Source: Oceanipulchritudo coccoides
GTDB lineage: Bacteria > Verrucomicrobiota > Verrucomicrobiia > Opitutales > Oceanipulchritudinaceae
DNA: 64,000 nt
Direction: 5' to 3'
Assembly (NCBI RefSeq): GCF_010500615.1
Contig: NZ_JAAGNX010000002.1
Coordinates: 362,990-426,989, forward strand
A model generated the notes under the pieces. It worked only from the letters and a program-made list of their open reading frames with translations, did not search any database and was not told the DNA's origin. Positions 7,347 through 22,604 of the stretch are shown here, piece after piece. How positions within the stretch are numbered: position 1 is the first letter of the stretch; each line of letters begins with the position of its first letter. A program made the position numbers and the translations under genes.

Positions 7347-8036
7347 ATGCGAGTTCGCGTCCTCAGCCTTGCTTTATCCGTGGTCCTTTTGACCTCGTTG
7401 GACAGTTCTGCATATGCCCTGAGCCTGCTTGACCGAAGCCCCTTTCTATGGCCCGGATTTTCACCCAAGGAGGGCGATCCCAAGGCGCAGGTAGCTGCGG
7501 GAGCGCCATCGGACCTTGAATTTCATGCGGTGTATGAACTTTCTGGTACAACAAAAGTCCTGCTGAAGGACCGCCGAAAGAACGAATTCCACTGGATCCG
7601 GATTGGAGAGGAAGTGGAGGGGATGCTTCCCAAGGAATACAACCGGGAAAAGGATGAGCTGCTCCTTGCCTACGATAATCAGGAAAAGTGGCTTTCCCTG
7701 CAGGATCTTCCGCAAGCCAGTGGCAAGCCCTCGGCCGCTGTCCAACCCGCAAGACCAACCAACACAAATCAAAATACGACGAGACGCCGCGTTATCCGGC
7801 CATCAAACCGCACGACTTCCTCCTCGACAAGAAATGTCATCCGGCCGACTTCAAGGACATCTTCAAATGTACCGCGACCGCCCATTCGTTCAACGAGGCG
7901 ACCCGTAACAGGGGATCCCCCGGTTGCCCTTCCGCCGGGTTTTGTTCCTCCCGAACCCGTTGGCGATCCGGCCACCCAGGCTCCCGAGTTTCTTCCTTCC
8001 CTGCCGCCAGGCACAACCCCTCCGTCGAAACCCTGA
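7347..8036 (+). CDS. Hypothetical secreted protein with Arg/Pro/Ser-rich tail
   Basis: A 229-residue product I cannot assign. Residues 1-24 (VRVLSLALSVVLLTSLDSSAYA) form a clear signal peptide. A small globular region follows (about 45-125; FHAVYELSGTTKVLLKDRRKNEFHWIRIGEEVEG), which looks like a compact beta domain. Residues 130-190 are basic and repetitive, with the unit VIRPSNRTTSS / VIRPTSRTSSN and then PRPPIRSTRRP. The end (190-229) is proline-rich. It starts 33 bp after the alpha-oxoamine synthase gene and ends 24 bp before the sulfotransferase, so it belongs to the same transcript. A basic, disordered tail could bind an acidic cell-surface polymer; that is inference only. Confidence 0.6.
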   Translation: MRVRVLSLALSVVLLTSLDSSAYALSLLDRSPFLWPGFSPKEGDPKAQVAAGAPSDLEFHAVYELSGTTKVLLKDRRKNEFHWIRIGEEVEGMLPKEYNREKDELLLAYDNQEKWLSLQDLPQASGKPSAAVQPARPTNTNQNTTRRRVIRPSNRTTSSSTRNVIRPTSRTSSNVPRPPIRSTRRPVTGDPPVALPPGFVPPEPVGDPATQAPEFLPSLPPGTTPPSKP

Positions 8037-8060
8037 CCGCGGGGTTGGATTCCTTTGTTG

Positions 8061-9554
8061 ATGAAGTCGATTATTATCTGCGCCACCCCGAGATCCGGCA
8101 GTTATCTCCTTTCGGATCTTCTCAACCAGAGAGGGATGCCCTTCGCAGAAGAATGGCTCACGCAGTTCCACCAGGAGTCCAGAAAGCGGGCCTATGGGGT
8201 CAAGGACAGCTTGGACTACATCTCCTTTCTCAAGTTGTTGACCGCCCGGGAACGCCAGGCCGGCCTTTTCTCCATGAAGGTGATGTTTCCCCAGTTTTAC
8301 CAACTGACTCAGCTTCTTGGCGAATCAAAGGAGGTGCCGGGAGGTACCTTCATGGAGAAGCTCTGCCACATATTTCCCAATCCGGCTTTTATCCGGGTTT
8401 CCCGGGAGAATAAGGTGGCCCAGGCCATTTCTCTCCACAAGGCCCGGCAAACGGGCCAATGGGTGAAGCGCAGGGGGGAGGAATTGCGGCCTGCCATCAA
8501 TCCGGTTTATTCCTTCCTCGGAATATTGGACGCATTTGAGGAAAGGCGACGATCCGAAAAATTATGGGAGGAGTTCTTCGAAAGCCATCCTGCTGATGTT
8601 TTTGAGATGTCCTATGAAGAGCTCATAGCGGACAAGGAAGGGATGCTTGAGCGTATTTTCAACTGGGCGGGGCTCAAGTTCAGTCCGGTGGCAAAATCCG
8701 AGGCCTCCAGTGGATTCCAACCGATGCGTTCTTCAATAAACGATGATTGGATCAAGCGATTTGAGCAGGACCTGGAACGCTCCCTTGACGATACCTCTGC
8801 TCCCTCTTTTGAAGGGCCTGAGAACATCAGTATCTCGGATGTTGGACTTGAAAGGGATTACATCGTTGGCGAAAGGTATTCCCTGGATGTGACCTGTCAG
8901 CCAGATCCTGGAAGTGAGATATCTCCAGTCGGGAAAAATAATGGCGATGGCTGGTTGCGTGTTTCCGGTCTTCTCTCGGGAGATGGGTTTGAGTCCTCTT
9001 TTGAGCAGGAGCTACAGTTGGCGGAGTCGGGTGCCTTTACCGCAAAGGGTATCCTCCCGATGCCGCCAAAGGCAGGTGTTTATTCCCTGAAGCTGGTTCT
9101 TTCGCGCAGGCATTTGCAGGTGGATGAATTGTTCTCCTCGCCCGGGGTGGAGCATGAAGTGAAATTCAGGCATCCACCCGCCCGGGAGGCCGCGCGAAAA
9201 CTACTGCCGGAGACTCGTGACCTGGATGACAGCTGGCAGTATGTCGAGTGGTTTGGGTATTTCCTCGATGACAAGTTTCCCTGGGTCTACCACGCCGATC
9301 ACGAATGGCTGTTCATCAAGCCTGAGCCGAATGATGACGGGGCATTGCATATCCTTGATGCGCAGCTGGGTTGGCTGGAGGTTTATCCTGACCGGTACCC
9401 CGAGCTGCGAAGCCTTAAGGATGGCAAACGGTGGCTTTTCCTCAAACGTGTCGAGGACAAGCGTCTATTCAGGGATCTGTCGGAAGACCGGGACATGAGT
9501 TTTGAAACCAACAGGCCCGAACACCTCGAAAAACTCAATCCCGGGAATGACTAA
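8061..9554 (+). CDS. Stf0-type sulfotransferase with aromatic-rich C-terminal extension
   Basis: The N-terminal half (about residues 1-250) is a PAPS-dependent sulfotransferase like mycobacterial Stf0. It has the 5'-phosphosulfate loop CATPRSGSYLLSDLL at the start, and FIRVSRENKVAQAISLHKARQTGQW, which holds the 3'-phosphate Ser/Arg positions. Residues 260-385 are an uncharacterised beta-rich region. Residues 390-490 form a Trp/Tyr-rich module (WFGYFLDDKFPWVYHADHEW, LGWLEVYPDRYPEL, GKRWLFLKRVEDKRLF). No signal peptide is present. ATG 8061 is chosen; two TTG codons precede it. Stf0 relatives sulfate sugars such as trehalose. The acceptor here is unknown; the neighbouring lipid and glycosyltransferase genes make a glycolipid plausible. 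Length is roughly twice that of Stf0, hence the fusion call. Confidence 0.82.
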   Translation: MKSIIICATPRSGSYLLSDLLNQRGMPFAEEWLTQFHQESRKRAYGVKDSLDYISFLKLLTARERQAGLFSMKVMFPQFYQLTQLLGESKEVPGGTFMEKLCHIFPNPAFIRVSRENKVAQAISLHKARQTGQWVKRRGEELRPAINPVYSFLGILDAFEERRRSEKLWEEFFESHPADVFEMSYEELIADKEGMLERIFNWAGLKFSPVAKSEASSGFQPMRSSINDDWIKRFEQDLERSLDDTSAPSFEGPENISISDVGLERDYIVGERYSLDVTCQPDPGSEISPVGKNNGDGWLRVSGLLSGDGFESSFEQELQLAESGAFTAKGILPMPPKAGVYSLKLVLSRRHLQVDELFSSPGVEHEVKFRHPPAREAARKLLPETRDLDDSWQYVEWFGYFLDDKFPWVYHADHEWLFIKPEPNDDGALHILDAQLGWLEVYPDRYPELRSLKDGKRWLFLKRVEDKRLFRDLSEDRDMSFETNRPEHLEKLNPGND

Positions 9555-9626: not shown

Positions 9627-10415
9627 TTACTGGACCGGATCGGTCAGCTCAACCCAGCTGCCACCACCGCCGAGGCGGATGATGAAATTACCCGGGTCAG
9701 TTGGGGAATCATCGAACTCACTGAAGTAGAACCAGCCAGCGCCATTGGCGTCATAACCGGAAGCGTCTGCGAGGTAGAGGTAACCTTCGAGGACCTGTGC
9801 GCCGGCTTCGCCGTCACTGAGGTCATTCACGCCGTCACCGTCAGAATCGCGGAGGTCGTTCCAGCCGTTTGTGCCGGAGACGAAGAACCAGATACCTGAG
9901 GTTTGTCCCGGGAAGAGGTTGTTGGTATACATCCAGACACCCGTTGCGAGGGAACGATTACCCGTGTTGGGATCGACGAAGACAGTAGCATCCCACTCAA
10001 GAACGTAGAACCAGTTGCTGGCAGCAAAGTGGTACATGTTCTTCAAAGTGAAGCTGAAGTACTGCTGGCTTTGATCGGCAGCGAGGCCTGTATCAAAGTC
10101 AAAGAAGTCAGATCCGAACCAGCTGACGATGAAGTCGCCACCCTGTGGGAGATCAGGAACAGTAAGTGTCGTGCCATCACCAAGCGTGATGCTGCCGTCT
10201 CCGTTAACCGTAGCGACAGGAGCATTGATGGTGTTTCCATCGACAACGAGATTGCCGTCAACGACTTCACCAGCCGGCGGGGCAATGACTGTGCCGTCAC
10301 TGAGAACGAGGTTACCGTCTTGGTCAACGGTGGCTCCCGGGTCAGGTTGGGCGTTCAGGGAGAAAGCAACCGCGCCGACAAGGCAGGTTGCGACGATTTT
10401 TTTGATGGTATTCAT
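9627..10415 (-). CDS. Secreted Trp-rich protein with tandem Asn/Gly/Asp-rich repeats
   Basis: A 262-residue exported protein; signal peptide MNTIKKIVATCLVGAVAFSLNAQ. Residues 27-90 hold three related units of about 20 residues (DGNLVLSDGTVIAPP, DGNLVVDGNTINAP, DGSITLGDGTTLTVP), probably a short beta repeat. The rest is rich in Trp, Phe and Tyr (FIVSWFGSDFF, NWFYVLEWDATVFVDP, TGVWMYTNN, GIWFFVSGTNGW, GAGWFYFSEFDD), resembling the aromatic module on two other proteins in the window. DSDGDGVNDLSDG is a thrombospondin type-3-like calcium loop. It is monocistronic, with its own terminator. Function unknown; a surface or matrix protein is the likely role. Confidence 0.7.
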   Translation of the reverse strand: MNTIKKIVATCLVGAVAFSLNAQPDPGATVDQDGNLVLSDGTVIAPPAGEVVDGNLVVDGNTINAPVATVNGDGSITLGDGTTLTVPDLPQGGDFIVSWFGSDFFDFDTGLAADQSQQYFSFTLKNMYHFAASNWFYVLEWDATVFVDPNTGNRSLATGVWMYTNNLFPGQTSGIWFFVSGTNGWNDLRDSDGDGVNDLSDGEAGAQVLEGYLYLADASGYDANGAGWFYFSEFDDSPTDPGNFIIRLGGGGSWVELTDPVQ

Positions 10416-10558: not shown

Positions 10559-11377
10559 TCAAAGAAAGTCGGGAAATCCGCTTTTCAGCCGGGCAAACAG
10601 GAAAAACCCACCGACGAGGAACAGGGCCGAAAAGCCGTACAAATAGGCGATCTGGACCAGATCCGGGGCAATTCCCCAGAGCACGATGGCCCGGAGATTC
10701 TCAGTGGCCAGGAGAACCGGATTCCACTTGAGAAAGGTCCAAATTTGGGGAAATTCCATGACTTTGATGGAACTGTAAAAGACCCCGCTGGACCAGAAGA
10801 CAATCTGGCTCATGACGTTGGTGAGCTGCTGAAGATCACGGAAATAGACGCTCAGGGCGCTGATCATGGCCGAAAGTCCGAGCGCAAGGCCCATCATGGG
10901 CAGGAAAATGACCGGCATGTAAAGAATCTCCCAGCTGAGCACAGAGCCAAAGAAAAGCCCCATGATAATCCAAAGGCAGGCATTTATCGCGACCTTGAAG
11001 GCGGTCCCGAGGACTTGGACAATGGGCAGTATCTCGAGCGGGAAAACGACTTTTTTAATGAGGTTTCTGTTGCGGAGCAGGTTATTTGTGGACTTGGCGA
11101 TGGTCTCGTTGACGAGGTTTACCATACTGAGCCCGATGTAGATCCCGATGGCGTAGCTGATTGAGGATTCGTTTTCCACCTGCCCGAACGAACCGCCAAA
11201 AAGCACGCCGAACACCACCAGGTAGAGGCACATGCTGAGGATGGGATTAAAAACCAGCCAGAGGATGCCCAGGGCGCTGCCCTTGATCGTCTCAGCAACC
11301 TCCCTGACGGTCAACTGGCGAAGCAGTTCACCGACATTGGTCCAGCGTGAGGCGGTATTTGCGTGGGAAGAACTCAT
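10559..11377 (-). CDS. ABC-2 type polysaccharide export permease
   Basis: Membrane half of an ABC exporter of the Wzm/KpsM/TagG family, 272 residues with about six membrane segments. Family positions include the amphipathic start (LLRQLTVREVAETIKGSALGILWLVFNPI), RNLIKKVVFPLEILPIVQVL and the terminal NPVLLATENLRAIVLWG...FLFARLKSGFPDFL. It moves undecaprenyl-linked glycan across the inner membrane together with the ATPase encoded divergently at 11481 (104 bp away). Having permease and ATPase on opposite strands is unusual, since they normally overlap in one operon. The 103-bp space between them must hold both promoters. Confidence 0.92.
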   Translation of the reverse strand: MSSSHANTASRWTNVGELLRQLTVREVAETIKGSALGILWLVFNPILSMCLYLVVFGVLFGGSFGQVENESSISYAIGIYIGLSMVNLVNETIAKSTNNLLRNRNLIKKVVFPLEILPIVQVLGTAFKVAINACLWIIMGLFFGSVLSWEILYMPVIFLPMMGLALGLSAMISALSVYFRDLQQLTNVMSQIVFWSSGVFYSSIKVMEFPQIWTFLKWNPVLLATENLRAIVLWGIAPDLVQIAYLYGFSALFLVGGFFLFARLKSGFPDFL

Positions 11378-11480: not shown

Positions 11481-12818
11481 ATGACCGCACCTGATGATCA
11501 TGCAATTCAACTGAGGAATGTTTCCAAGGTTTACCGGATTCCCGCCAAAGGCCGCGAATCATTCCTGGGATCCATGACGGTCATGTTTGATGCCCTTCTG
11601 GGGAATTACGGGAAGCGCCACGGGACATTCCGGCAGTTTGACGCCTTGGAGCCGCTTGATGTAATGATTGGACGTGGCGAAAGCATGGCCATTGTTGGCC
11701 GGAACGGATCGGGCAAATCCACTCTCCTGCAGATTATCGCGGGCACCCTCCGGGCAACGACGGGAACCGTTCAGGTGAATGGCAGCCTTTGTGCGCTTCT
11801 TGAGCTTGGGTCGGGCTTCAATCCTGAATTCACGGGAATGGAGAACATTTATCTCAATGGAGCGATGCTCGGGCTCGAACGCAAACGCATCGAGAACAAG
11901 CTGGAGGACATTCTTGCCTTTGCGGAAATCGGGGAGTTTGTCGATCAACCTGTCCGGACTTATTCTTCCGGGATGCGCTTACGGCTCGCCTTCGCGGTGA
12001 TTACAGCGGTGGATCCGGAAATCCTGATCATTGATGAAGCCCTCTCAGTGGGTGATGCCTTTTTTCAATCCCGGTGCGTGCGATGGTTGGAGGATTATCT
12101 GGAGCGGGGAAACACCTTCATCTGCGTTTCCCACGACATGTTCATGATCCAGCGCTTGTGCCGGCGGGGAATTGTCCTTGATGACGGACGGAAGGCTTTT
12201 GAGGGAGATATTTCAGATGCCGCAAACTTGTATTACCGCCTGCACGGCAAGGGGGCGAAGGTTGGGGGCCGCCTCCTCGACAAGGATGAGCCCGCCGATG
12301 AGGAGGACAAGGATGACGAGGACGACCTGGTCTCGGTGAAGGACGAAGCAGGGTGGTGGTTATTGAATTTGAGGATCAAGGAGCGCACCGGAAACCAGCA
12401 AGTCACGATTGAGAAGGTATGGACCCAACCCAACCTCCAGGAGGGAATTCCTTCGGGCAAATGGCTGAAGGTAAAGATCCAGGTCAGGGCGCGTGAACCC
12501 ATTGAGCTTTTTCACTTTGGTTTTGGATTTCGCGACCGCAGTGGTCAGCTAATTGGAGGATATCATTCCTTCTATGAGGAAAAAAGTGTCGCTATTGAGA
12601 GCGCTGGTCAGGGAAAAATCATTACCTGTGAGTTCAAGCTCGATCTGAAGCCGCAGATGTATCTCCTTGTGATTGGACTGGCGATTAACCACACCGCTGA
12701 CGACTGGCAAGATCTTGACTGCATCTGGGATTGTGCCAAGGTTCTGGTCACGGGGCAGGAAACATTCTGGGGTCTTGCGCCTTTGCCCATGCGTGGTTTT
12801 ACTGCTGAGGATCTTTAA
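11481..12818 (+). CDS. ABC exporter ATPase with C-terminal Wzt-like glycan-binding domain
   Basis: Nucleotide-binding subunit of the glycan exporter, 445 residues. The ATPase domain (about 1-245) has Walker A GRNGSGKST, the signature YSSGMRLRLAF and Walker B ILIIDEALSVGD, then the SHD switch (CVSHD). A highly acidic linker (DKDEPADEEDKDDEDD, about 268-285) leads to a beta-rich C-terminal domain (290-440) like Wzt_C. In Escherichia coli O9a that domain binds the methylated/phosphorylated end cap of the O-antigen. The next gene is a methyltransferase, which fits export of an end-capped chain. The gene is divergent from its permease partner. Confidence 0.92.
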   Translation: MTAPDDHAIQLRNVSKVYRIPAKGRESFLGSMTVMFDALLGNYGKRHGTFRQFDALEPLDVMIGRGESMAIVGRNGSGKSTLLQIIAGTLRATTGTVQVNGSLCALLELGSGFNPEFTGMENIYLNGAMLGLERKRIENKLEDILAFAEIGEFVDQPVRTYSSGMRLRLAFAVITAVDPEILIIDEALSVGDAFFQSRCVRWLEDYLERGNTFICVSHDMFMIQRLCRRGIVLDDGRKAFEGDISDAANLYYRLHGKGAKVGGRLLDKDEPADEEDKDDEDDLVSVKDEAGWWLLNLRIKERTGNQQVTIEKVWTQPNLQEGIPSGKWLKVKIQVRAREPIELFHFGFGFRDRSGQLIGGYHSFYEEKSVAIESAGQGKIITCEFKLDLKPQMYLLVIGLAINHTADDWQDLDCIWDCAKVLVTGQETFWGLAPLPMRGFTAEDL

Positions 12819-12849: not shown

Positions 12850-13953
12850 ATGGCACTTGAACGCGTTAACCCTTTTGAAGAGGAAGATCGATTTGCAGTG
12901 GACCACTTGTTGCGGTACCTCTGGGCAAGGCCATTGGTTGAGAAAAAGAGGACGGTTGATATTGCCTGTGGGTTGGGGTTTGGAACAGTCATGTTGGCTG
13001 AGAACAATGAAGCCGAGATCATTGGGGTGGATTCCGACGGGGACACGATTAACCGTTGCCTGGAGCTTTGGGACCATCCCAGCGTCAGCTTTAAACAAGG
13101 ACTTATCGAGGAGGTTCCCGAGCTGGTTTCAGGTCAGGTGGACTGTCTTGTTTCATTTGAAACACTGGAGCACATTCCCGACCCAAAGGCCGGATTGGCG
13201 GCAATCAAGAGACTGCTGGGCGAGCAGGGTCTGTTCATTGGATCTGTTCCCGGCGAGACCGACCTGTACGAGGAAAACGAATTTCATCTCCACTCATACA
13301 ATGAACAACGCTTGGGCACGCTTCTTCAAAATGAGTTTAAGAACAGCGTGATTCTCAAGCAGCGGTTCCACCTGGCTTCAATTGTTGATTCTGCCGGGTC
13401 GTCAATTCCTGACGTGGTCTCCTTCGAAACAATGGACGCGGCGAGAATTGATTTCGGAAAAACAACCGAAACAAGCGACTCCCTTGTTTTTCTGGCCTCT
13501 GATGCACCCCTTCCTGATGCCTTTGGCCACAAGATCGCACTATCCCGTCAGGCCTGGTTCAAGGACTTTGTCCGTGCCCAGACTTACGCCAGTGAATTAA
13601 AGTCCCTTTCCCACAAGTACACGGATCTTTTCAGCCGCCACAACAAGTTGTTTTTCGAGCACGGCGAACTGCAAAGAAAGTTTACGAATGTCCTCGGGTG
13701 GGGAAAATATCACTACGAGGTAGTCGCAGGTAAACAACCCGAACAGCATTACATGGAAACCATTGAGAAAGCCCAGTCTGCAAGGGAGGAAGCGCTTCGA
13801 GCCGAAGTGCAGGCCCTGCAAGCCGAGATCCGGGACTTGAAGGAGCAAAAGCAGGAGGAGTCGGTTCCCGAGGAAGAGACGCGCAAGGTGCAGGATGAGT
13901 TTTTCAGCGGTTACAAAAAATTAAACACACCATCCGTGGAAGATCCACAATGA
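12850..13953 (+). CDS. SAM-dependent methyltransferase with C-terminal coiled coil
   Basis: 367 residues. The class I methyltransferase domain (about 1-200) has motif I VDIACGLGFGTVMLA, the acidic end of strand 2 (IIGVDSDG) and VDCLVSFETLEHIPDP. Residues 245-355 are helical and charged, with a heptad-like stretch REEALRAEVQALQAEIRDLKEQ. No kinase domain is visible, unlike WbdD of O9a. It lies 31 bp after the exporter ATPase, and its stop overlaps the start of the 1210-residue gene (ATGA at 13950-13953), so the two are translationally coupled. Likely role: methylating the non-reducing end of the exported glycan or a sugar precursor. The first reading rests on the coiled coil and the context. 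Confidence 0.82.
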   Translation: MALERVNPFEEEDRFAVDHLLRYLWARPLVEKKRTVDIACGLGFGTVMLAENNEAEIIGVDSDGDTINRCLELWDHPSVSFKQGLIEEVPELVSGQVDCLVSFETLEHIPDPKAGLAAIKRLLGEQGLFIGSVPGETDLYEENEFHLHSYNEQRLGTLLQNEFKNSVILKQRFHLASIVDSAGSSIPDVVSFETMDAARIDFGKTTETSDSLVFLASDAPLPDAFGHKIALSRQAWFKDFVRAQTYASELKSLSHKYTDLFSRHNKLFFEHGELQRKFTNVLGWGKYHYEVVAGKQPEQHYMETIEKAQSAREEALRAEVQALQAEIRDLKEQKQEESVPEEETRKVQDEFFSGYKKLNTPSVEDPQ

Positions 13954-16900
13954 CACGCTCACAAGTTGCTATCATTACCCGTACCAAGGACCGGCCTGTT
14001 TTTCTGCAGCGGGCCATGCAGTCTGTGCTGAAACAGGATTTTACGGACTGGGTTCATGTGATCGTCAATGACGGGGGAGATCCAAAGCTCGTTGACCTGC
14101 TGGTCGAGGTCCACAAGGAGGCGTATGCCGGTCGCGTCAAGGTGGTGCACCATGCGGAAAGCAAGGGTATGCAAAACGCTTCCAACGCCGGGTTGGCAGC
14201 AGTCGAGAGCACCTATGCGGTGATCCACGATGACGATGACAGTTGGTATACCGACTTCCTGAGCAAGTCGGTTTCCTTCCTCGAAGCAAAGGGCCCCGAA
14301 AGCCCGGTGCAGGGGGTTGTTACCCAGACAACCCAGATCATGGAGGAAATCACACTTTCCGGGCAAATCGAGGAATTGAAGCGTCGCCCTTATTATCCCT
14401 TCGCCTTTGTCAACCTGGGAGAACTGCGTAAACGCAACATATTCGCCCCAATCGCTTTTCTGTATCGAAAAAAAGCGCATGAAAAAATTGGATTATTCCG
14501 GCAGGAATTTGATGTGCTGGGCGATCATGATTTCAATCTTCGTTTTCTCCGACACTTTGAAATTGGCGTAATACCAACTTTCCACGCCTATTACCACTGG
14601 CGTCATGGAAGCCATGGAAACACGGTCACCCGGGGCCGAGAGGGCCATCGCCAGATGCTCAACCGGATGAAAAACACCTACTACCGGGAAGCCCTCGAGA
14701 ATCCCGATGTTGCGGTGGGCGATCTTGAGGGAGTGGATTTTCCGGAACCGGACGGGACGGACCCCATACCGTTCAAGCTGCGTACCGAAGAGTCCAAGCC
14801 GCCAAGGCCGATACCAGATTTCAGCAAGGACTTTAAATTCGAGATTCTCTCCCTTGACGTCTTTGACACGGTTCTCAAGCGGCGATGCCATCACCCGAAG
14901 GATGTTTTCAAATTCCTTGAGGCCCGGGCGGTCAGCGAGCTGGGCCTGCCGGAGAAACCCTATGCGCTTGCCCGGGAACAGGCAGAGGCCCTTGCCAGAA
15001 AGGAAGTTCGCCCGGAGATTTCGACTGAAGTCACGCTTGATGAGATTTACCCGTTTGTGGCAAAGCTTTGTGGGCTTAAAAAGAAGCAAACAAAAGATCT
15101 CATGGCCCTTGAGTTGGCTCTTGAGGCGGAGTATCTCTACGGGGATCCGCGCTGGATTGAATATTACAGGAAACTGAAGGAATCCGGCCAGCGGGTAATT
15201 TTCGTTTCTGACATGTATCTAAAAACGGATACAATGCGGAAAATCCTTGAGGGTTGTGGATTTCCCGACCCGGAGGTGTACGTATCCTGTGATCTGCAAG
15301 CCTCCAAGCACGAGGGAGCCCTTCAGGAAAAAGTTGTCGAAAAGCTGGGCGTGAAACCCGCATCGATTCTACATGTTGGAGATAATTTCCACAGCGATTA
15401 CCTGAAGACCGTCCACGCTGGCTGGCAGGCTTTCCACTGGTCGCGGGAGTTTGGATATATTCCCTGGTATGCCGAAGTGGATCCCTACATTCACAATTCC
15501 CATGACCTTCTCAGTCCGCGCATCATGGGTGAGCTTGCACGGCTCGGGATGCTGGATGAGACAACCGGCGAGGACCTCATCACAAAACTGGGCCGAGAGG
15601 TGGCAGGACCTTTTTACCTGGCTTATCTCTTGTGGGTCATACAAGAAGCGAGAAAGGATGGCGTCCGCAAGCTACTCCTCATTGGCCGGGATGGATATTA
15701 CTGGGAGAAGACGCTGCAGATCCTTGCCAAAAAGGAAAACCTGGAGATTGAGTTCACATATCTTCACGCCTCTCGGAAGGTCTTCAACTTTGCCTCCTTC
15801 TTCACCCTGGACGATACAGCGATTGAGTTTCTTTCAACTCCCAATCCTGCCCTTCGGGTAAAGGATTTTATTGACCGTACAGGTCTGGACTCATCGGCAT
15901 TCACGGAATTCATCAAGATGGCCGGATTTGATGATCCGGAGGAGGTGCTGACAAACGAGATGGGGGGGCGCTTTCTTGAGGATAACTATCAGGCCCAGTT
16001 GGAAAAACTATTCCGGCTCTTGAGGCCGGAGCTCGAATTGATGTTTGCGGAGGACCGCGCGGGCACACTCAATGTGCTCAAGGAAGCCGGTTACAATCAT
16101 GAAGACTGCGCCTTTGTCGACATTGGTTGGAACGGATCCTGTATTCGGCCTATTGGTCGATTACTCGGTCTCGACAAACCGGAGCAGGTGAAGGCCTATT
16201 TCTTTGGAACATGGAGGGAGGTTTTAAAGGGGTCCGACCACCTTAAAATAAAATCCTTTTTCATGCATCTCAGCGAGCCGCTGGATCATTTCCGGTTAAT
16301 TCGAGAATCCGTCAACCTTCTGGAGTCCTTGAATGCGGCCCCGTTCCCCACTTTGATGGCCTTCCATACGGAGGGAGACGAGGTTGTTCCGCACTTTTCG
16401 AAATACCTCAAGAGCGGGTTTTCCATCGATCAGCAGGAACGCCTTTGGAAGGGTGCAAAGGTGTTTCTTGATACTGTTCTGGAGAATGGTTTGCCTGAAA
16501 CAGGGGAATCCGGCGGGCATTGCTACCTGTTTCTGGTCTTGAACCGGCTCCTCCGGGAGCCCAGCCAGCAAGAAGTCAAAACCTGGGGGGCCATTCTTCA
16601 CTCGGATGGCTTTGGGATTGAGATATACAAGCCCCTGGTTGAAGCAGTTACACCTGACCTGACGGGTGATGCGTTGATGGCGGCCTACCGTGGATCGAAT
16701 TGGAAACGGGGTTTTCTGTCATCCCTTTCTGACACGCAGCGCCAGTTCGTGATTGAGAGGATTGAAGATGATTCCCCAAAAAGTTTTGAGAAACTAAGGG
16801 CAGATCTCGAGTACAAGATTCGTCAAGCAGACGAGCTCTGGGGCGAAAAAGAACGCTACAAGTGGCAGGTAGACAACTTGACCCAAACGCTTTCCAAGTT

Positions 16901-17582
16901 GGAAAAGACCTCCAACAAACTTCAATCGGACCTGGATTACAAAACACAGCAGGCAGATAAGTTCTGGAAAGAAAAGGAGGAATACAAGTGGCGGGCTGAA
17001 CATTCCGGTGAGATCATTTCCCGGCTGGAAAAGACCGCAGAAAAGTTGCAGGGAGATCTGGACTGGAAAACCAAGCAGTCTGATGAATTCTGGGCGGAGA
17101 ATGAGCGCCACAAAATTGAAGCGCAATCGTTGAAGGAACAGTTGCAGATGATCGCCCAGGATCAAGAGGTAAGGCTCTCTTACATAGCTACCCTGGAAAG
17201 CCAGATCACTGAACTAAAGGAACAGATTATTTCTGCGGGGACCCGGGAAAAGGAGTTCTACACGGCGCTTTCTGAAACACGCGCCCGCCTTTCGGACGTG
17301 GAGACGGAGCATGGCCGTCAATCATCCTACATATCCACCTTGGAAAAATCCGTTGAATCCTTTGAGCGACAGGTCGCTGAATTGAATGAACAGATTGCTT
17401 CTGCGGGAATTCGGGAAGACGAGCTCAATGCGGTGCTTTCGGAAACGCAAACCCATCTGTCGGAATTGGAAAGCGCGCATGCCGACCTTGTCGCCGAGCG
17501 GGATCGTCTCAAGGCATTGTTGTTGAATCGCGGGAAACTACTAAAAGTATTCTTTAGCGGGAAAATCCCGGAGAAGGATTGA
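13950..17582 (+). CDS. GT2 glycosyltransferase - HAD - unknown domain - coiled-coil fusion protein
   Basis: 1210 residues in four parts. (1) GT2 domain, about 1-245: IITRTKDRPVFLQRAMQSV, metal-binding IHDDDDSW, GDHDFNLRFL. (2) HAD domain, about 300-500: motif I LSLDVFDTV (Asp303), motif II VIFVSDMYL, motif III Lys in QASKHEGAL, motif IV HVGDNFHSD (Gly477 onwards). Motif I has Phe, not Asp, two residues after the nucleophile. (3) Unassigned domain, about 545-930: RDG at 580-582, HASRKVFNFAS, DIGWNG (Asp724), YFFGT, NAAPFP, WKRGF; this HAD-plus-unknown arrangement resembles COG5610. (4) Coiled coil, about 945-1195, made of internal repeats. No membrane segment or signal. Likely a cytosolic polymerising enzyme that also alters phosphate groups on the chain; the chemistry is not established. 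Confidence 0.85.
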   Translation: MTRSQVAIITRTKDRPVFLQRAMQSVLKQDFTDWVHVIVNDGGDPKLVDLLVEVHKEAYAGRVKVVHHAESKGMQNASNAGLAAVESTYAVIHDDDDSWYTDFLSKSVSFLEAKGPESPVQGVVTQTTQIMEEITLSGQIEELKRRPYYPFAFVNLGELRKRNIFAPIAFLYRKKAHEKIGLFRQEFDVLGDHDFNLRFLRHFEIGVIPTFHAYYHWRHGSHGNTVTRGREGHRQMLNRMKNTYYREALENPDVAVGDLEGVDFPEPDGTDPIPFKLRTEESKPPRPIPDFSKDFKFEILSLDVFDTVLKRRCHHPKDVFKFLEARAVSELGLPEKPYALAREQAEALARKEVRPEISTEVTLDEIYPFVAKLCGLKKKQTKDLMALELALEAEYLYGDPRWIEYYRKLKESGQRVIFVSDMYLKTDTMRKILEGCGFPDPEVYVSCDLQASKHEGALQEKVVEKLGVKPASILHVGDNFHSDYLKTVHAGWQAFHWSREFGYIPWYAEVDPYIHNSHDLLSPRIMGELARLGMLDETTGEDLITKLGREVAGPFYLAYLLWVIQEARKDGVRKLLLIGRDGYYWEKTLQILAKKENLEIEFTYLHASRKVFNFASFFTLDDTAIEFLSTPNPALRVKDFIDRTGLDSSAFTEFIKMAGFDDPEEVLTNEMGGRFLEDNYQAQLEKLFRLLRPELELMFAEDRAGTLNVLKEAGYNHEDCAFVDIGWNGSCIRPIGRLLGLDKPEQVKAYFFGTWREVLKGSDHLKIKSFFMHLSEPLDHFRLIRESVNLLESLNAAPFPTLMAFHTEGDEVVPHFSKYLKSGFSIDQQERLWKGAKVFLDTVLENGLPETGESGGHCYLFLVLNRLLREPSQQEVKTWGAILHSDGFGIEIYKPLVEAVTPDLTGDALMAAYRGSNWKRGFLSSLSDTQRQFVIERIEDDSPKSFEKLRADLEYKIRQADELWGEKERYKWQVDNLTQTLSKLEKTSNKLQSDLDYKTQQADKFWKEKEEYKWRAEHSGEIISRLEKTAEKLQGDLDWKTKQSDEFWAENERHKIEAQSLKEQLQMIAQDQEVRLSYIATLESQITELKEQIISAGTREKEFYTALSETRARLSDVETEHGRQSSYISTLEKSVESFERQVAELNEQIASAGIREDELNAVLSETQTHLSELESAHADLVAERDRLKALLLNRGKLLKVFFSGKIPEKD
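16797..17145 (+). repeat. Tandem 126-bp coding repeats (42 residues each, 2.7 copies)
   Basis: Within the coiled coil of the 1210-residue protein. Copy 1 begins RADLEYKIRQADELW (16797), copy 2 QSDLDYKTQQADKFW (16923), copy 3 QGDLDWKTKQSDEFW (17049, partial). The first two are exactly 42 codons, i.e. six heptads, and end in SKLEKTSNKL / SRLEKTAEKL. Confidence 0.88.
17178..17492 (+). repeat. Second tandem coding repeat, 49 and 56 residues
   Basis: Downstream in the same coiled coil. Copy A starts SYIATLESQITELKEQI (17178, 49 codons). Copy B starts SYISTLEKSVESFERQV (17325, 56 codons). B carries one extra heptad near its start; both then share (E/N)EQI-SAG-RE and LSET. All unit lengths are multiples of seven. 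Confidence 0.82.
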
Positions 17583-17598: not shown

Positions 17599-19599
17599 TT
17601 AACCGTGCGGTTTGCTGAAGCGGGCAGCGGGGTAGAGTAATTTAAAGAGCATCCGTTCAGGACGGCTTAATTGGGTATAATAACCTTTCCGCCAGTGGGA
17701 TTGCTTGAATTCCTGTTTCCACAATTTCTTGGAGATTCCCAGACCTTTGAACCCTGATGGTCCAGCCATGCAACTGTGCCGAAAATATGAACCATAGCCA
17801 TCGGCATATTTAACCGCACCAAGCCGGGTAGCTTCTTCTGCAGAGGGCTCGACGAGAAGGCGTTGAAGCAAACGCATTACATCCTTCGGCGGGACTCCCT
17901 TACCCGGTCCGTTGCTGGCGCGCATGATCTCTTGTACATATTCGATAACGGCACCATGAATTTCGGCTAGTGCCGGGAGGTCATCCTGATTATCATGATC
18001 CTTTGCCAGCACCGGACTAAAGCCCGTGTCGGTATCACCCTCCATGAAAAGAAAAGTGTGTTCGGGCGCGGCAAAGAAAAACTCGACCAGGCAGACGCAG
18101 TGGCGAATGATATCCATCGTGTCCTCCGGGAAACCGTACTCCATGAGATAGTGCACATGCTTTGACAGTGGACCGGACCGTTCAATCGCTTGTGGATAAG
18201 TCCCAAGATAATACCCCTCGATGGGCAGGTCTGGCGCTTCGGGTCGCAGGAGCTTTTCAAAGGAGCGCTGAATGGATGTCATCCAACCGACATCAACAAG
18301 AACAAAGGACTGGTCATCGAGGACCCCCTTATGTCTCAGGTAGGAAAGGTAAATGGAACGTTCCTTTGCCGCTGCCTCAAGGAGCGCAGGGGAAATATGG
18401 TGGTATAGTTTGCGCAGGTTCTCGTATTCGTGACCACCAACAACCGGGTGATCAATGTTGTCGAAGCCACACTCACGGATCGATTCAAGATGTGCCTGCG
18501 GGTCGATGTTGATGCGTCTTAAAAAGTCCCCGATAGTAAGGCCGATCCCCTCGGCAAGCCAGTCCTCAGTGACCTTGTCCAGTTCGTGAATTGAGGCAAA
18601 ATTCAAAGCCCGTCTGGAGGCAAAAAGATAATCTGCTTCAGGGCAGTCACTCAAATTTGTCGTGAGAATCTCATACACCTGCTTCAGGATGTGGCCGTCA
18701 CGCGAGAGGAAATAAACCTTTTTGATCCCGCGGCCACGCAGCTTTTCAATCAGGAATTGCACGTATCCATAAATCAGCGGGGCGGCAAATTGGTATCCAA
18801 TGCGATACCAGAAAGGATCCTCGTGCAGATCTTCCCGGAGACATCCCCGTGCCGAAAGTCCAAGAAGGAGGCTCTCCTGGGGGCTGCGGGAGGATTTAAG
18901 AAGAAGCGGTTCCCAGGGGTTTCCGGAAAAGCGGTCGATTGAATCAATGGCCTTGCCGATTTGAAGTGTACGGATGCCCAGCTTGGCCGCCTGCTTTCCA
19001 TCGCTGCGTGGGTTGTCCCCCACGTGAAGGAGTTTTTCGGGTGAGATCTGGAGATCATCGAGCACATGCTGAAAAAGCTTTCCGGTATGTTTCAGCTTTC
19101 CAATCGTCGAGCTGAGATAGAAGGCGTCATAATCTTCAAACCCGTTTTCCCGGAGGCAATCCTCACAAAAGGTCTGGGGGAGATACATGTCGGAAATTAA
19201 AATCACCCGTTTGCCGGCCTCGCGCGCGGACCGAATCATGGCCTTGGCGTTTTCCAGCGGATAGAGCAGGCGTTTCTCGACCGCCATTTCGTGCTCAATC
19301 AATTCAGCCGCATCCAGGGGCCATGCCGGATAGTCTTCCTTCAAAAGCGTATAGATGTCATCCAGCAGGATTTCCTCAGACTGCCGTTCGTCCCATGCCC
19401 GGCGTCGGGCCCTCGAATCCGCGTCGCGGCGAATTTGAGCAAAGTGATTGAAGGCCTCTCCAAAGCGCTCAACCAGTTCAGTCTCAAGAATTGTGAAAGT
19501 ATCGTCAGGGAGCGCGCAGCGACGTCCCAATACCGTATCAAAGATATCGAGGGAAAGCACCTCAACATCCGCCAAATGGCCTTCAAACTCCGGGCTCAT
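17599..19599 (-). CDS. HAD-superfamily protein with C-terminal unknown domain (COG5610-like)
   Basis: 666 residues equivalent to the middle of the 1210-residue protein. The HAD domain (about 1-215) has LSLDIFDTVLGRR, RVILISDMYLP, TIGKLKHTGKLF and HVGDNPRSDGKQA; again Phe stands two residues after the nucleophilic Asp. The second domain (about 250-640) has SRDGHIL, FASRRALNFAS, DVGWMT, YYLGTY, FAAPEHT and HWRKGYY. No coiled-coil tail. Its ATG overlaps the stop of the upstream GT2 gene (ATGA at 19596-19599), so the pair is a split form of the GT2-HAD-unknown fusion. It is the last gene of a five-gene minus-strand operon and ends 17 bp from the convergent 1210-residue gene. Confidence 0.8.
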   Translation of the reverse strand: MSPEFEGHLADVEVLSLDIFDTVLGRRCALPDDTFTILETELVERFGEAFNHFAQIRRDADSRARRRAWDERQSEEILLDDIYTLLKEDYPAWPLDAAELIEHEMAVEKRLLYPLENAKAMIRSAREAGKRVILISDMYLPQTFCEDCLRENGFEDYDAFYLSSTIGKLKHTGKLFQHVLDDLQISPEKLLHVGDNPRSDGKQAAKLGIRTLQIGKAIDSIDRFSGNPWEPLLLKSSRSPQESLLLGLSARGCLREDLHEDPFWYRIGYQFAAPLIYGYVQFLIEKLRGRGIKKVYFLSRDGHILKQVYEILTTNLSDCPEADYLFASRRALNFASIHELDKVTEDWLAEGIGLTIGDFLRRINIDPQAHLESIRECGFDNIDHPVVGGHEYENLRKLYHHISPALLEAAAKERSIYLSYLRHKGVLDDQSFVLVDVGWMTSIQRSFEKLLRPEAPDLPIEGYYLGTYPQAIERSGPLSKHVHYLMEYGFPEDTMDIIRHCVCLVEFFFAAPEHTFLFMEGDTDTGFSPVLAKDHDNQDDLPALAEIHGAVIEYVQEIMRASNGPGKGVPPKDVMRLLQRLLVEPSAEEATRLGAVKYADGYGSYFRHSCMAGPSGFKGLGISKKLWKQEFKQSHWRKGYYTQLSRPERMLFKLLYPAARFSKPHG

Positions 19600-20465
19600 T
19601 TTTTCTTAAAGAGACTGAACCGGCGTTTTTTAAACTCGTTCTTCACGTCCCAGGCAAGGTCCCAAAGCATAAGTGCCTCGTTGGCGATGACCCCGGTCCC
19701 GGTGCGCCCGCTCTTGATATCCTCGCGCAGCCACTCGTTGCGGAGGAGGTTGTCATAGAAAGCGTGCAGGTGTGCTTTCGCCTGAACCGAGCTGGCGTAG
19801 TCACCGTTGCCGCTGTGATCGCGATCGTGGTAATAGGCGAGCTGTTCGGGAATCAGGCCAATTTCATACCGGGACAGAAAGCGCACATTAAAATCCCAAT
19901 CTCCGAGAACGGGAAGGTCTTCCCTGAACGCACCTGCTTCATGGCAGGCCTCGCGGTCAAATAGGAAAGCGATCGGGGCGAAGACATTTTCAGCGAGCAT
20001 CCGGCGCAAGCTGATATGCTGCAACCAGTCATTGTAGGGAAAAGTCCGGAGCTGGCGGACGGAATCCCCTTCGATGGCCTCAATGACCCGCTCGGTGTGT
20101 GTTATCACGCCCTTGACGGAGGGGTGGGGCGGGGAATCCAGATAGGCGGAGGTCCTCGCAAAAAATTCCGGGTGAAGGGAATCGTCATCGTCGTGGATAA
20201 GCGCGTATTTGCTGTCGAGGGCATTCAGGCCGGCGTTGGAGGCGGCTTCCATCCCTACGGATTCGGGATGATGCAGGCACTGGACCTTGCTTTTTTTCTC
20301 GGCGGGAAGGGCTTCAATGAGACGATTTACCGGTTCCGGGTCGCCACCGTCATTGACAATCACGAGGCTCCAGTCTCCGAGGGTTTGTTCACAGACGCTA
20401 CGGATTGCCCGTTCAAGCAGAACCGGTCGGTTCTTGGTCCGCATGATTGCACCAATTTTAGACAT
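19596..20465 (-). CDS. GT2 family glycosyltransferase
   Basis: Inverting GT-A glycosyltransferase of 289 residues, paralogous to the N-terminal domain of the 1210-residue protein. Shared features are IGAIMRTKNRPVLLERAIRSV, LVIVNDGGDPEPVNRLIEA, HHPESVGMEAASNAGLNAL, the metal-binding LIHDDDDSLHPEF, NVFAPIAFLFDREA and LGDWDFNVRFLSRYE. The intact HDDDD motif suggests an active, metal-dependent enzyme. Translationally coupled to the HAD gene that follows and 50 bp after a second, closer GT2 paralogue. Probably adds sugars to the glycan exported by the ABC system encoded at 10559-12818. Confidence 0.9.
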   Translation of the reverse strand: MSKIGAIMRTKNRPVLLERAIRSVCEQTLGDWSLVIVNDGGDPEPVNRLIEALPAEKKSKVQCLHHPESVGMEAASNAGLNALDSKYALIHDDDDSLHPEFFARTSAYLDSPPHPSVKGVITHTERVIEAIEGDSVRQLRTFPYNDWLQHISLRRMLAENVFAPIAFLFDREACHEAGAFREDLPVLGDWDFNVRFLSRYEIGLIPEQLAYYHDRDHSGNGDYASSVQAKAHLHAFYDNLLRNEWLREDIKSGRTGTGVIANEALMLWDLAWDVKNEFKKRRFSLFKKK

Positions 20466-20515: not shown

Positions 20516-21355
20516 CTAAGCTTTTTTAAACAGGCGAAGGGAGCGTTTTTTGAACTTCTGCGTGAGATTCCTCAGCATGCGGGCCTCGTTGGCGATGACT
20601 CCGGGACCCGTTCGCCCGTTCTGAATGTCTGAACGCAGCCAACGGTTTCTCAGAAGGTTGTCAAAAAACAGCCTGCGCTGCGCGTGCTCATGGGCATCGG
20701 ACGGTTCTCCACGTTGGTGCATAAAGGCGAGCACCTCCGGGAGGACGGCTATTTCATAGAGGGTGAGGAAGCGCACATAGAATTCCCAGTCGTACAGGAC
20801 AGGAAGGGATTCATCAAAGCCGCCCGCCTTCTCGCAGGCCTCGCGATCATAAAGAAAGGCGATCGAGGCGATAACATTCTCGGCAAGCAGTCGCCGCATG
20901 CTGATGTGTTGCAGCCAGTCATTGAAGGGGGCACGGCTTGTTGTCTCTATGGAGGCTTCCTCGACGCGCTCAAAAACCTGTTCGGTACCGGTCACGACAC
21001 CCTTGACCGAGGGATGAGCCGGAGCCTTCAGATATCCGGTTGTCCGCTCAAGAAATTCCGGGTGAAGCGAATTTCCATCATCGTGGACGAGGACAAAGCG
21101 GCTCTCGAGCAGCATCCGTCCAGCATTTAGCGCCGCTCCCTCCGTGACGGCCTCTTGCAGATGGATGTGCCGGACTTTGCTTCGGTTTTCCGGGCTCAGG
21201 GATTCCAGTACTTGATCCACGGTGTCGGGGCTGTTGTTTTCCCTCACAATGACCAGTTCCCAATCCTTGAATGACTGGTCGCATACGCTCTGGATAGCGC
21301 GCTCCAGAAGCATGGGGCGGCTTTGAGTCCGCATGATGATGCCTACTTCTGCCAC
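20516..21355 (-). CDS. GT2 family glycosyltransferase with altered DXD region
   Basis: 279 residues, a close paralogue of the gene at 19596-20465 (both contain NVxAxIAFLxDREAC and an almost identical C-terminal tail FKKR-LxLFKK). The metal-binding region reads VHDDGNSLHPEF where the paralogue has IHDDDDSLHPEF, so one or two of the acidic residues are lost. The reading frame extends upstream to TTG at 21433, but GTG at 21355 is preferred. It gives MAEVGIIMRTQSRP, which aligns with the MSKIGAIMRTKNRP start of the paralogue, and it avoids overlap with the upstream gene. Start uncertain by up to 26 codons. Probably arose by tandem duplication; activity uncertain. Confidence 0.8.
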   Translation of the reverse strand: MAEVGIIMRTQSRPMLLERAIQSVCDQSFKDWELVIVRENNSPDTVDQVLESLSPENRSKVRHIHLQEAVTEGAALNAGRMLLESRFVLVHDDGNSLHPEFLERTTGYLKAPAHPSVKGVVTGTEQVFERVEEASIETTSRAPFNDWLQHISMRRLLAENVIASIAFLYDREACEKAGGFDESLPVLYDWEFYVRFLTLYEIAVLPEVLAFMHQRGEPSDAHEHAQRRLFFDNLLRNRWLRSDIQNGRTGPGVIANEARMLRNLTQKFKKRSLRLFKKA

Positions 21356-21407
21356 ATCGTGAGATTCAGTCCGCCAACATTGTTTTTCAAGGAGAATGTC
21401 GGGCTCC

Positions 21408-22604
21408 TCATGATCGATCGGGAGGCATGCCAATAATCAGTGGGGCAAGGGCGAGCCGCTGCCATGGCTTCAGGCGCTTTAAAAACCCTGCTCTCCAGTA
21501 AGCCCGACGGTATTGGTTGCGCAAGTTCCAGACAGATGTGGATGATCCTTCCGGACGGGCCAGTGGATGGAGATCAAGCGCCTGCCCGAAGCCGCCAAAG
21601 TGGTTCACATTCCCAACGATCTGGGCTTCCTTGGCGTTGGGCTTCCTCAAAAGGCGCGTCAATTCAGCAAAGCCCTCCTCCAGCGGCATTGCTGGATCAG
21701 CCTCCCAGCATTCCCGCTTTTTCTGGATGTGTGCCAAAGCGGCCCTTTGCATCAAGATCAGGGAAGGTTGGATATCGGCATGTTCATCAACGGGAACATA
21801 TTCTGGCTTGAAGGAATTGCCCTCTCTCCGGATGCGCTTAATGGACGGATGCGGTGCCGCAAAGAGCGTTTCCACAAGCAGCTGGCAGTGCCTGATGGCG
21901 CGGCATGGCTTTTCCGGGGAGGAGTGATTGAAATAGAGGCCCGAGGTGCGCTTGGAATCCTGCACACCGACTGGGGCAATGGTTCCCATATAATAACCGT
22001 GCAGCTCCGTCTGGCTTCCGGAATTATTCAATAATTCCTGCAGTGCTGCCTGCAGATTACCTTGCCAGCCCAGATCGACGAGGGCCACCGGTTCTTTTGT
22101 GGCAGTGATCAGTCCCACCGACTCCAGATAAGCGAGCAGGCACTCACGTTCCTCCTTGGCCTGCTTGAGGATTCTTCCCGAAACAGAATCCAGATAGTCC
22201 ATGAAGGCCTCACGGTCTTGCCGGGAACGCAGGGGAGCATTCCAGGCTACGCCTGTGTCCGCGCCCGGCTCCGGAAAATCGAGACCCAGTTGGTGCAAGC
22301 ATTGGGCCGGTGTGAGGTTCTTCCTTGAGAGAATCAGGGCTTTCTCGGAATCGCCGAGCCGCTCCATCCGGGCAATGCGCAGACATCGGCGTGAGGCCCA
22401 GAGATAGAGCGGTGCAGGTGACCCTTCCTTGCCGTAAAGAAGTTCCCAAGTGTCCTTTAAAATCAGGCCGTCACGGGCCAGAAAGAGGATCTTCCGCATA
22501 TTGCGGCCGCTGATCTGCTCATGAATCCAGTGACACATACTGAAATACAAAGGTGCGCAGACCCGCTCACCGATATGGGTCCAGAATTGTGTATTCCCAC
22601 TCAT
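21408..22604 (-). CDS. Stand-alone unknown domain shared with the HAD and GT2-HAD proteins
   Basis: 398 residues, with no HAD or GT part. It aligns with the second domain of the other two proteins from its first residues: HIGERVCAPLYFSMCHWIHEQ, ARDGLIL, WASRRCLRIAR, DLGWQGN, YYMGTI, FAAPHPS and, near the end, YWRAGFLKRL. The preferred start is ATG at 22604, which overlaps the stop of the upstream GT4 gene (ATGA 22601-22604); an earlier in-frame start at 22640 would overlap by 40 bp. That the domain exists alone shows it is an independent unit. No enzyme family recognised. Confidence 0.75.
   Translation of the reverse strand: MSGNTQFWTHIGERVCAPLYFSMCHWIHEQISGRNMRKILFLARDGLILKDTWELLYGKEGSPAPLYLWASRRCLRIARMERLGDSEKALILSRKNLTPAQCLHQLGLDFPEPGADTGVAWNAPLRSRQDREAFMDYLDSVSGRILKQAKEERECLLAYLESVGLITATKEPVALVDLGWQGNLQAALQELLNNSGSQTELHGYYMGTIAPVGVQDSKRTSGLYFNHSSPEKPCRAIRHCQLLVETLFAAPHPSIKRIRREGNSFKPEYVPVDEHADIQPSLILMQRAALAHIQKKRECWEADPAMPLEEGFAELTRLLRKPNAKEAQIVGNVNHFGGFGQALDLHPLARPEGSSTSVWNLRNQYRRAYWRAGFLKRLKPWQRLALAPLIIGMPPDRS

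Follow-up and report, generated by a model that had tools for sequence, protein, structure and literature searches.

We propose that a single long gene within a 64,000-nucleotide stretch of the Oceanipulchritudo coccoides genome (contig NZ_JAAGNX010000002.1; referred to here as the window, with positions counted from its first letter) encodes a glycan polymerase that alternates β-ribofuranose with a sugar added by a GT2 glycosyltransferase domain, the resulting chain being exported by the adjacent Wzm/Wzt system. We place the probability of this reading at about 0.75. The gene is one ATG-started open reading frame of 1210 codons (13950-17582, + strand), and its product joins three enzyme domains, recognizable by homology and by conserved catalytic residues, to a coiled coil built with internal repeats; genes for a Wzt-type ATPase and a methyltransferase adjoin it. 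An earlier note, made from the sequence alone, had recognized this frame, its GT2 and HAD parts, a region with RDG, SR, and DxGW motifs, the repeat-built coil, and the two adjoining genes, all of which held up on analysis. The same note regarded the order of the parts as undescribed. However, the order transferase, HAD phosphatase, ribosyltransferase has already been published for Bcs3 and Cj1432; what is new here is the GT2 as the partner and a repeat-built coil of varying length on the polymerase. The main gene and its parts are as follows.

13950-17582, + strand: main gene, 1210 residues, with GT2, HAD phosphatase, predicted phosphoribosyl pyrophosphate (PRPP)-dependent ribofuranosyltransferase, and coiled coil in that order; orthologs are single-frame in genomes G002, G008, and G015
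13950-14759, + strand: GT2 domain (PF00535), residues 1-270, with HDDDD at 93-97 and GDHDF at 191-195
14811-15479, + strand: predicted HAD phosphoribose phosphatase domain (CrpP-like), residues 288-510, with D303, K453, and D478; from the Bcs3 alignment, the model, and VIA-align to 8a0c
15570-16754, + strand: predicted PRPP-dependent glycan ribosyltransferase domain (CriT-like), residues 541-935, with R580 D581, S608 R609, and D724
16755-17507, + strand: coiled coil, residues 936-1186, with repeats in heptad phase
16794-17117, + strand: 42-residue unit (126 bp) in three copies, the last partial, each with LxxDLxxKxxQxDxxWxExxxxK; 64% DNA identity in the best 100-nt stretch
17214-17483, + strand: coil segment in two copies offset by 56 residues (168 bp); 73% DNA identity in the best 100-nt stretch
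17508-17579, + strand: conserved basic and hydrophobic C-terminal tail, residues 1187-1210

Predicted phosphatase and ribosyltransferase domains

On the basis of profile matches and a predicted fold, residues 288-935 are assigned to a phosphatase followed by a PRPP-dependent ribofuranosyltransferase of the Bcs3 type. A sequence search against the PDB matched the main protein to Bcs3 of Haemophilus influenzae type b (PDB 8a0c, 8a0m) at 3.2e-19 and to the Thermobacillus composti ribofuranosyltransferase 7shg at 4.5e-13. When a profile of 12 proteins with HAD and ribosyltransferase (PRT) domains was compared with all solved chains, Bcs3 (1.3e-55) and 7shg (6.3e-53) were followed at 3.6e-09 by a match to the HAD part only. 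The main protein thus has the layout of the gPRT + PRP family, an HAD phosphatase with a PRT-like domain immediately after it.

An AlphaFold2 model of residues 288-947, computed without templates, gave a predicted fold for these two domains (predicted local distance difference test score, pLDDT, 87.1; predicted template modeling score, pTM, 0.86). In a structure search with this model, Bcs3 chains took ranks 1-6 (TMq 0.67-0.71) and 7shg ranks 7-8 (TMq 0.41-0.42), the root mean square deviation (rmsd) of about 14 for 7shg indicating the same domains in a different arrangement; the other 42 of the best 50 rows were the HAD part or long poor alignments. VIA-align paired the model with 8a0c over 612 residues (Z 25.8, rmsd 4.8), spanning CrpP and CriT (model residues 9-659), and with 7shg at Z 24.6 and rmsd 13.2; its rows beyond rank 3 are HAD folds, from which no absence is inferred.

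Active site residues point the same way. D303, S420, K453, and D478-N479 of the HAD domain and R580-D581-G582, S608-R609, and D724 of the ribosyltransferase were invariant in a 12-sequence alignment, and G726 and W727 nearly so. The HAD nucleophile motif D303-V-F-D306-T aligns with D-I-F-D-T of Bcs3, the second aspartate of DxD being absent as in CrpP. In Bcs3, CrpP uses D386 as its nucleophile, alongside K548; in CriT, docked PRPP is held by S678, R679, D680, S707, R708, R712, E818, T825, and S884, E874 has been proposed as the base, and alanine at D680 or E818 clearly reduces activity (PMC10299916; here and below, statements on published systems draw on parts of the cited papers). In the profile alignment, Bcs3 D386, R679-D680, S707-R708, and E818 fall on D303, R580-D581, S608-R609, and D724, all invariant in 12/12 sequences, and E874 falls on E792, also invariant in 12/12, at a stretch where the alignment is unsure (Bcs3 numbers were counted by hand and lie 3 below the chain index). 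Because the RDG, SR, and DxGW motifs align with the PRPP-holding residues of Bcs3, they most likely form the PRPP pocket. The region that the earlier note had called an uncharacterized domain therefore belongs with known ribosyltransferases; the note had also asked whether residues 545-930 would fall into a known housekeeping family, and the family is indeed known, but it serves glycan assembly and not housekeeping. These residues are covered by no Pfam match listed, nor by any of the 25 NCBIfam rows listed out of 26.

The GT2 domain is well supported by PF00535 (residues 8-180, E 2.1e-17, 64 bits against a curated cut-off of 23.3) and is 65-72% identical across five orthologs. At the C terminus, coil families in Pfam match below cut-off, and a PHROGs search returned no match at 1e-5.

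Among characterized systems, Bcs3 shares with the main protein the order transferase, CrpP, CriT, as well as the fold, most catalytic residues, and a pathway with an ATP-binding cassette (ABC) exporter (PMC10299916). However, the N-terminal part of Bcs3 is a ribitol-phosphate transferase (CroT) and that of the main protein a GT2; for Bcs3, the part of the paper drawn on describes an SH3b domain but mentions no long coil (PMC10299916), whereas the main protein has one. Cj1432 of Campylobacter jejuni HS:2 shares the chain of sugar transferase, HAD, and PRPP ribosyltransferase with an extra C-terminal helical part, but its N-terminal domain is a GT4 glucuronosyltransferase and its C-terminal extra a four-helix bundle (residues 915-1031) (PMC12096443). 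The order of its activities was shown biochemically, the N-terminal transferase acting on ribose that has just been dephosphorylated (PMC12096443). In the characterized relatives, each ribose arrives with a 5-phosphate from its PRPP donor, and this phosphate is taken off by the HAD domain (PMC10299916, PMC12096443). The ribofuranosyltransferases of Klebsiella O4 and O7, where ribofuranose O antigens are exported by an ABC exporter, and the 7shg enzyme share the HAD and PRT domains but stand alone, without GT2 or coil, the coil being in the terminator protein (PMC11231755).

Orthologs, wider relatives, and tree

Orthologs with GT2, HAD, PRT, and coil were found in 6/17 genomes of the family, namely G000 (the window's own genome), G002, G007, G008, G012, and G015; the 17 include drafts 74 to 84% complete, and these presence counts ignore kinship. 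The polymerase of G007 reads in two overlapping frames (L038 12289-14724 and 14453-15751), reflecting an assembly error or a broken gene, and that of G012 lies on two contigs; each was counted as one gene by the order of its parts. A scan of genome contigs confirmed at least 536 HAD-PRT relatives among the 593 pattern matches listed, and the best 80 loci were kept for further analysis. A home-made GT2 profile placed a GT2 before HAD-PRT in one frame in 13 of these 80, at L112 (36.4 bits) and L128 (43.8 bits) weakly; L048 also matches this profile weakly (19.6 bits). Ten other long N-terminal parts were scanned, with Methyltransf_24 matched in three, RgpF in one, Capsule_synth below cut-off in one, and no match in five. 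Proteins with Methyltransf_24 before HAD-PRT occur in Acetobacteraceae / Chelatococcaceae (L067, L069, L070), and Lachnospiraceae proteins of about 1500 residues show the reverse order HAD, PRT, GT2-like (L087, L118, L120). HAD-PRT was present at E <= 1e-20 in 21 of 387 genomes drawn from the phylum.

A quick tree of 108 PRT domains, with SH-aLRT supports and many long branches, grouped 13 of the 14 fetched GT2-HAD-PRT rows and the window protein in one 20-row clade (support 93) with members from Verrucomicrobiota, Myxococcota, and Thermodesulfobacteriota; L048 is among the 13 by its marginal GT2 match. Within the tree, the coil-bearing proteins form a clade of six with a coil-less Puniceicoccaceae protein, L055 (support 100), G007 being left out because its domain is cut by the frame change. 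When C-terminal ends were compared by eye, coil and tail were absent from L055 and nine other relatives. Since the coil-bearing proteins fall in one clade and these relatives lack it, the coil was probably gained once. In the open-licence PMC literature we found no experiment on any member bearing GT2 or coil; searches there combining ruler with tandem repeat, and Verrucomicrobiota with ribofuranose, gave no title or abstract start describing the protein, and a literature search for COG5610 found nothing.

The coiled coil and its repeats

A home-made heptad rule flagged residues 956-1008, 1021-1050, and 1057-1167 as coil, compared with a mean of 20/275 residues in 200 composition shuffles. Self-similarity of the coil scores 186 at an offset of 42 residues and 83.5 at 56, whereas none of 100 heptad-preserving shuffles scored above 50. 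Outside the two repeat offsets (126 and 168 bp), DNA identity over the best 100 nt reaches at most 44%. Tandem Repeats Finder (TRF) reported no array of 126- or 168-bp period in the window coil, only a 9-bp array of 2.1 copies at 17347-17365; with DNA identities of 64% and 73%, this indicates that the repeats in the window coil are old.

The catalytic body and the coil differ in how they vary. Up to residue 935, the body measures 929-935 residues in the four orthologs read in one frame, with 4 to 10 gap columns, while their coils measure 251, 210, 160, and 118 residues, the shortest in G008, and those of G007 and G012 about 188-191. Coils favor multiples of seven, and the best self-match offset is such a multiple in all six (42 residues in G000, 56 in G002, 14 in G015, 14 in G008, 49 in G007, and 14 in G012), beating all 100 heptad-preserving shuffles in each. 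Minisatellites of 42 bp were found in G012 (5.9 copies at 89%), G015 (4.3 at 92%), and G008 (2.9 at 98%), and a second G015 locus carries one of 6.7 copies at 84%; these copy numbers are provisional, as metagenome-assembled genomes (MAGs) can miscount repeats. The unit sequence of G008 differs from that of G012 and G015, so the 42-bp arrays probably arose separately, more than once. At a threshold of at least 7/9 fixed letters, which no shuffle reached, LxxDLxxKxxQxDxxWxExxxxK occurs three times in G000, twice in G002, once in G007, twice in G015, twice in G012, and once in G008, with exact copies numbering 3, 1, 0, 1, 0, and 1, respectively. A search of 55 related genomes with the window coil stretch (E <= 1e-4) returned the same six genomes only.

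The coil and the conserved basic, hydrophobic tail of 24 residues behind it would anchor the enzyme in a complex that may lie at the membrane; a role as a tether or assembly handle is fairly probable. The tail was also considered as an amphipathic membrane helix, and this found no support, its hydrophobic moment being equaled by 215 to 894 of 1000 shuffles in all six orthologs.

In a more neutral account, which we favor slightly, the coil is an ordinary oligomerization or scaffold segment whose heptad-unit duplications are neutral slippage, uninformative on chain length, with catalysis as proposed above. Any coil would be expected to change length by in-frame duplication in heptad phase, and the repeats differ among orthologs that share the same body. 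Set against this are the roughly two-fold range of coil length (118-251) on so constant a body with a conserved tail, and the co-occurrence of the coil with the methyltransferase, found at E <= 1e-15 in five of the six genomes with a coil-bearing polymerase and in 0/11 other family genomes. In favor of the neutral account, no terminator is fused to this coil, unlike the coil proteins of the Klebsiella systems, each of which carries its terminating enzyme at the far end (PMC11231755).

The polymerase could plausibly carry its own chain-length ruler, but we consider it rather unlikely that this coil serves as one. In E. coli O101/O162, the methyl end group depends on a methyltransferase that has a coil at its C terminus and also alters the length of the chain; the authors of that work propose a ruler (PMC13168486). 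The WbdD-type rulers and this methyltransferase share with the present cluster a coil and a methyltransferase in the assembly of an ABC-exported glycan, but in those systems the coil is on the terminator, whereas here the long coil is on the polymerase and the methyltransferase has only a short helical segment (PMC11231755, PMC13168486). The main protein has the long coil but no terminating enzyme beyond it, only the 24-residue tail, with the methyltransferase as a separate gene; hence it is not classed as a WbdD-type ruler. The polymerase coil might pair with the methyltransferase helix. In a more specific version, which we regard as doubtful, the ruler on the polymerase would be set by DNA repeats, the 42-bp minisatellites gaining or losing two heptads (14 residues) and LxxDLxxKxxQxDxxWxExxxxK serving as the docking place of the methyltransferase. 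In G224, a separate 522-residue frame (L188 7721-9289) comes after a HAD-PRT gene; three coil stretches are predicted in it, and it is a possible ruler protein.

Neighboring genes, export, and the proposed cycle

The genes flanking the main gene are listed below.

10559-11377, - strand: Wzm, ABC-2 permease (PF01061, E 1.1e-14)
11481-12818, + strand: Wzt, ABC ATPase with Wzt C-terminal carbohydrate-binding domain (PF00005; PF14524, E 2.4e-16); nearest solved chain 8dku, E 7.1e-65
12850-13953, + strand: S-adenosylmethionine methyltransferase with a short C-terminal helical heptad segment, candidate chain terminator (PF13847, E 4.2e-14)
17599-19599, - strand: second predicted ribofuranosyltransferase, HAD and PRT, without GT2 or coil (Bcs3 at 2.1e-29, 7shg at 9.7e-18); in a separate clade
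19596-20465, - strand: stand-alone GT2 (PF00535, E 8.5e-18), its stop overlapping the start of the HAD and PRT gene
20516-21433, - strand: stand-alone GT2 (PF00535, E 1.3e-12)
21408-22640, - strand: third predicted ribosyltransferase domain, without its own phosphatase (7shg at 2e-07); RDG, SR, and DxGW kept

The three ribosyltransferases are the only copies in the 3.52-Mb genome (E <= 0.001). They were considered as recent tandem copies, and this was rejected, as the main gene and 17599-19599 fall in separate well-supported clades; 21408-22640 sits on a long branch at an open fork. The window also holds a Stf0 sulfotransferase-like frame (8055-9554). Such frames occur in 5/19 fused GT2-HAD-PRT loci (L040, L048, L055, L063, and L206; L048 weakly at 2.3e-06, and L040 and L206 classed as fused because they have the coil) and in 0/71 other HAD-PRT loci; the glycan may be sulfated, and shared taxonomy may also account for the pattern. 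GT4-type glycosyltransferases lie near the main gene as well. Beside the cluster, 7347-8036 and 9627-10415 encode two proteins that Pfam does not match and whose starts, judged by eye, resemble signal peptides.

The Wzt carries its C-terminal carbohydrate-binding domain as in ABC-exported glycans with a recognized chain cap, and the methyltransferase stop and polymerase start overlap by four bases (ATGA). The order Wzt, methyltransferase, polymerase is kept in G000, G002, and G015. The methyltransferase is directly upstream of the polymerase in these and in G007; in G012 the two are separated by one frame of 614 residues without assignment (L039 882-2726). Long Wzt matches (>300 residues, 53-65% identity) were found in G002, G012, and G007; the G015 match is truncated where its contig stops. 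At 1e-40, 13/17 family genomes, the window's own included, hold more distant Wzt-like ATPases.

By analogy with the characterized enzymes, the cycle very likely runs in three steps. The ribosyltransferase domain would move ribose-5-phosphate from PRPP, β-linked, onto the growing-end sugar; the HAD domain would strip the 5-phosphate from the new ribose; and the GT2 would add one residue derived from a nucleotide sugar onto the freed ribose, whereupon the cycle restarts. The two further ribosyltransferases and two GT2s nearby may contribute additional residues to the same glycan. The adjoining methyltransferase would probably cap the finished chain, with Wzt recognizing the cap and exporting the chain with Wzm; for export with a methyl cap, we see the chances as even.

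The GT2 and the ribosyltransferase could instead serve different glycans or side branches, in a fusion of convenience that is no backbone polymerase. Three ribosyltransferase domains and three GT2s in one cluster leave room for mixed partners, and the Stf0 and GT4-type enzymes are close. However, the GT2-HAD-PRT clade spans several phyla, indicating that the pairing has been kept, and the fused transferase of Bcs3 and Cj1432 acts on ribose, so we consider this alternative unlikely. As for the earlier note's functional reading, joint action of glycosyltransferase and phosphatase in glycan assembly beside an exporter stands, but trimming of a phosphate-containing polymer assembled by the GT2, suggested by an HAD domain next to a glycosyltransferase, is very improbable, since the adjoining domain is by homology a PRPP-dependent ribosyltransferase whose product bears the 5-phosphate taken off by HAD enzymes of this family, a phosphatase here does not imply such a polymer, and a Pfam search at E 0.1 gave no polyol-phosphate transferase domain in the main protein.

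Several observations weigh against the alternating, exported polymer that we propose. We know of no polymer described from the source organism. The HAD part scores 25.4 bits with PF00702 (residues 394-483), under the cut-off of 26.4, and four PRPP-holding positions of Bcs3 are changed (S678 to G579, R712 to N613, T825 to C731, beside S730, and S884 to T801). A model of residues 1-1195 has a mean pLDDT of 47.8 (four rows), unfit for fold claims, and merely shows 946-1193 as long helices. The methyltransferase is a generic match, WbdD standing 29th among its PDB matches (2.7e-07); the coil rule leaves it unflagged, its best heptad window is equaled by 10, 2, 0, 14, and 1 of 200 shuffles in five sequences, and what suggests its capping role is gene order and co-occurrence. 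G008 has the polymerase but neither such a methyltransferase nor a Wzt on its 20-kb stretch, its more distant Wzt-like ATPases lying elsewhere in the genome. The earlier note had looked to the company of glycan exporters as a test. Among the other fused loci (n = 17, duplicates removed, window excluded), a Wzt-type ATPase above 120 bits lies near 8/17 and none near 9/17, a count that covers Wzt-type ATPases as the one exporter kind sought; eight coil-less fused relatives lack such an ATPase nearby, some on short contigs. One GT2-HAD-PRT gene (L059 6906-9944), from a MAG titled Deltaproteobacteria and placed under Myxococcota in the tree, neighbors MutY-like, acyl-CoA synthetase, alcohol dehydrogenase, and ABC genes, with no glycan gene in the scanned flanking frames.

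The assignment nonetheless places long proteins of Verrucomicrobiota and of some Myxococcota and Thermodesulfobacteriota, named in Pfam only for GT2 and HAD, among probable ribofuranose polymerases, and it predicts β-ribofuranose in the surface glycans of these bacteria. If the coil is a ruler, the orthologs would offer, on a shared catalytic body, a natural length series (118, 160, about 190, 210, and 251 residues) for a direct test of coil against glycan length. A repeat-set ruler, if true, would let chain length shift in small steps, possibly between strains, with the active sites untouched.

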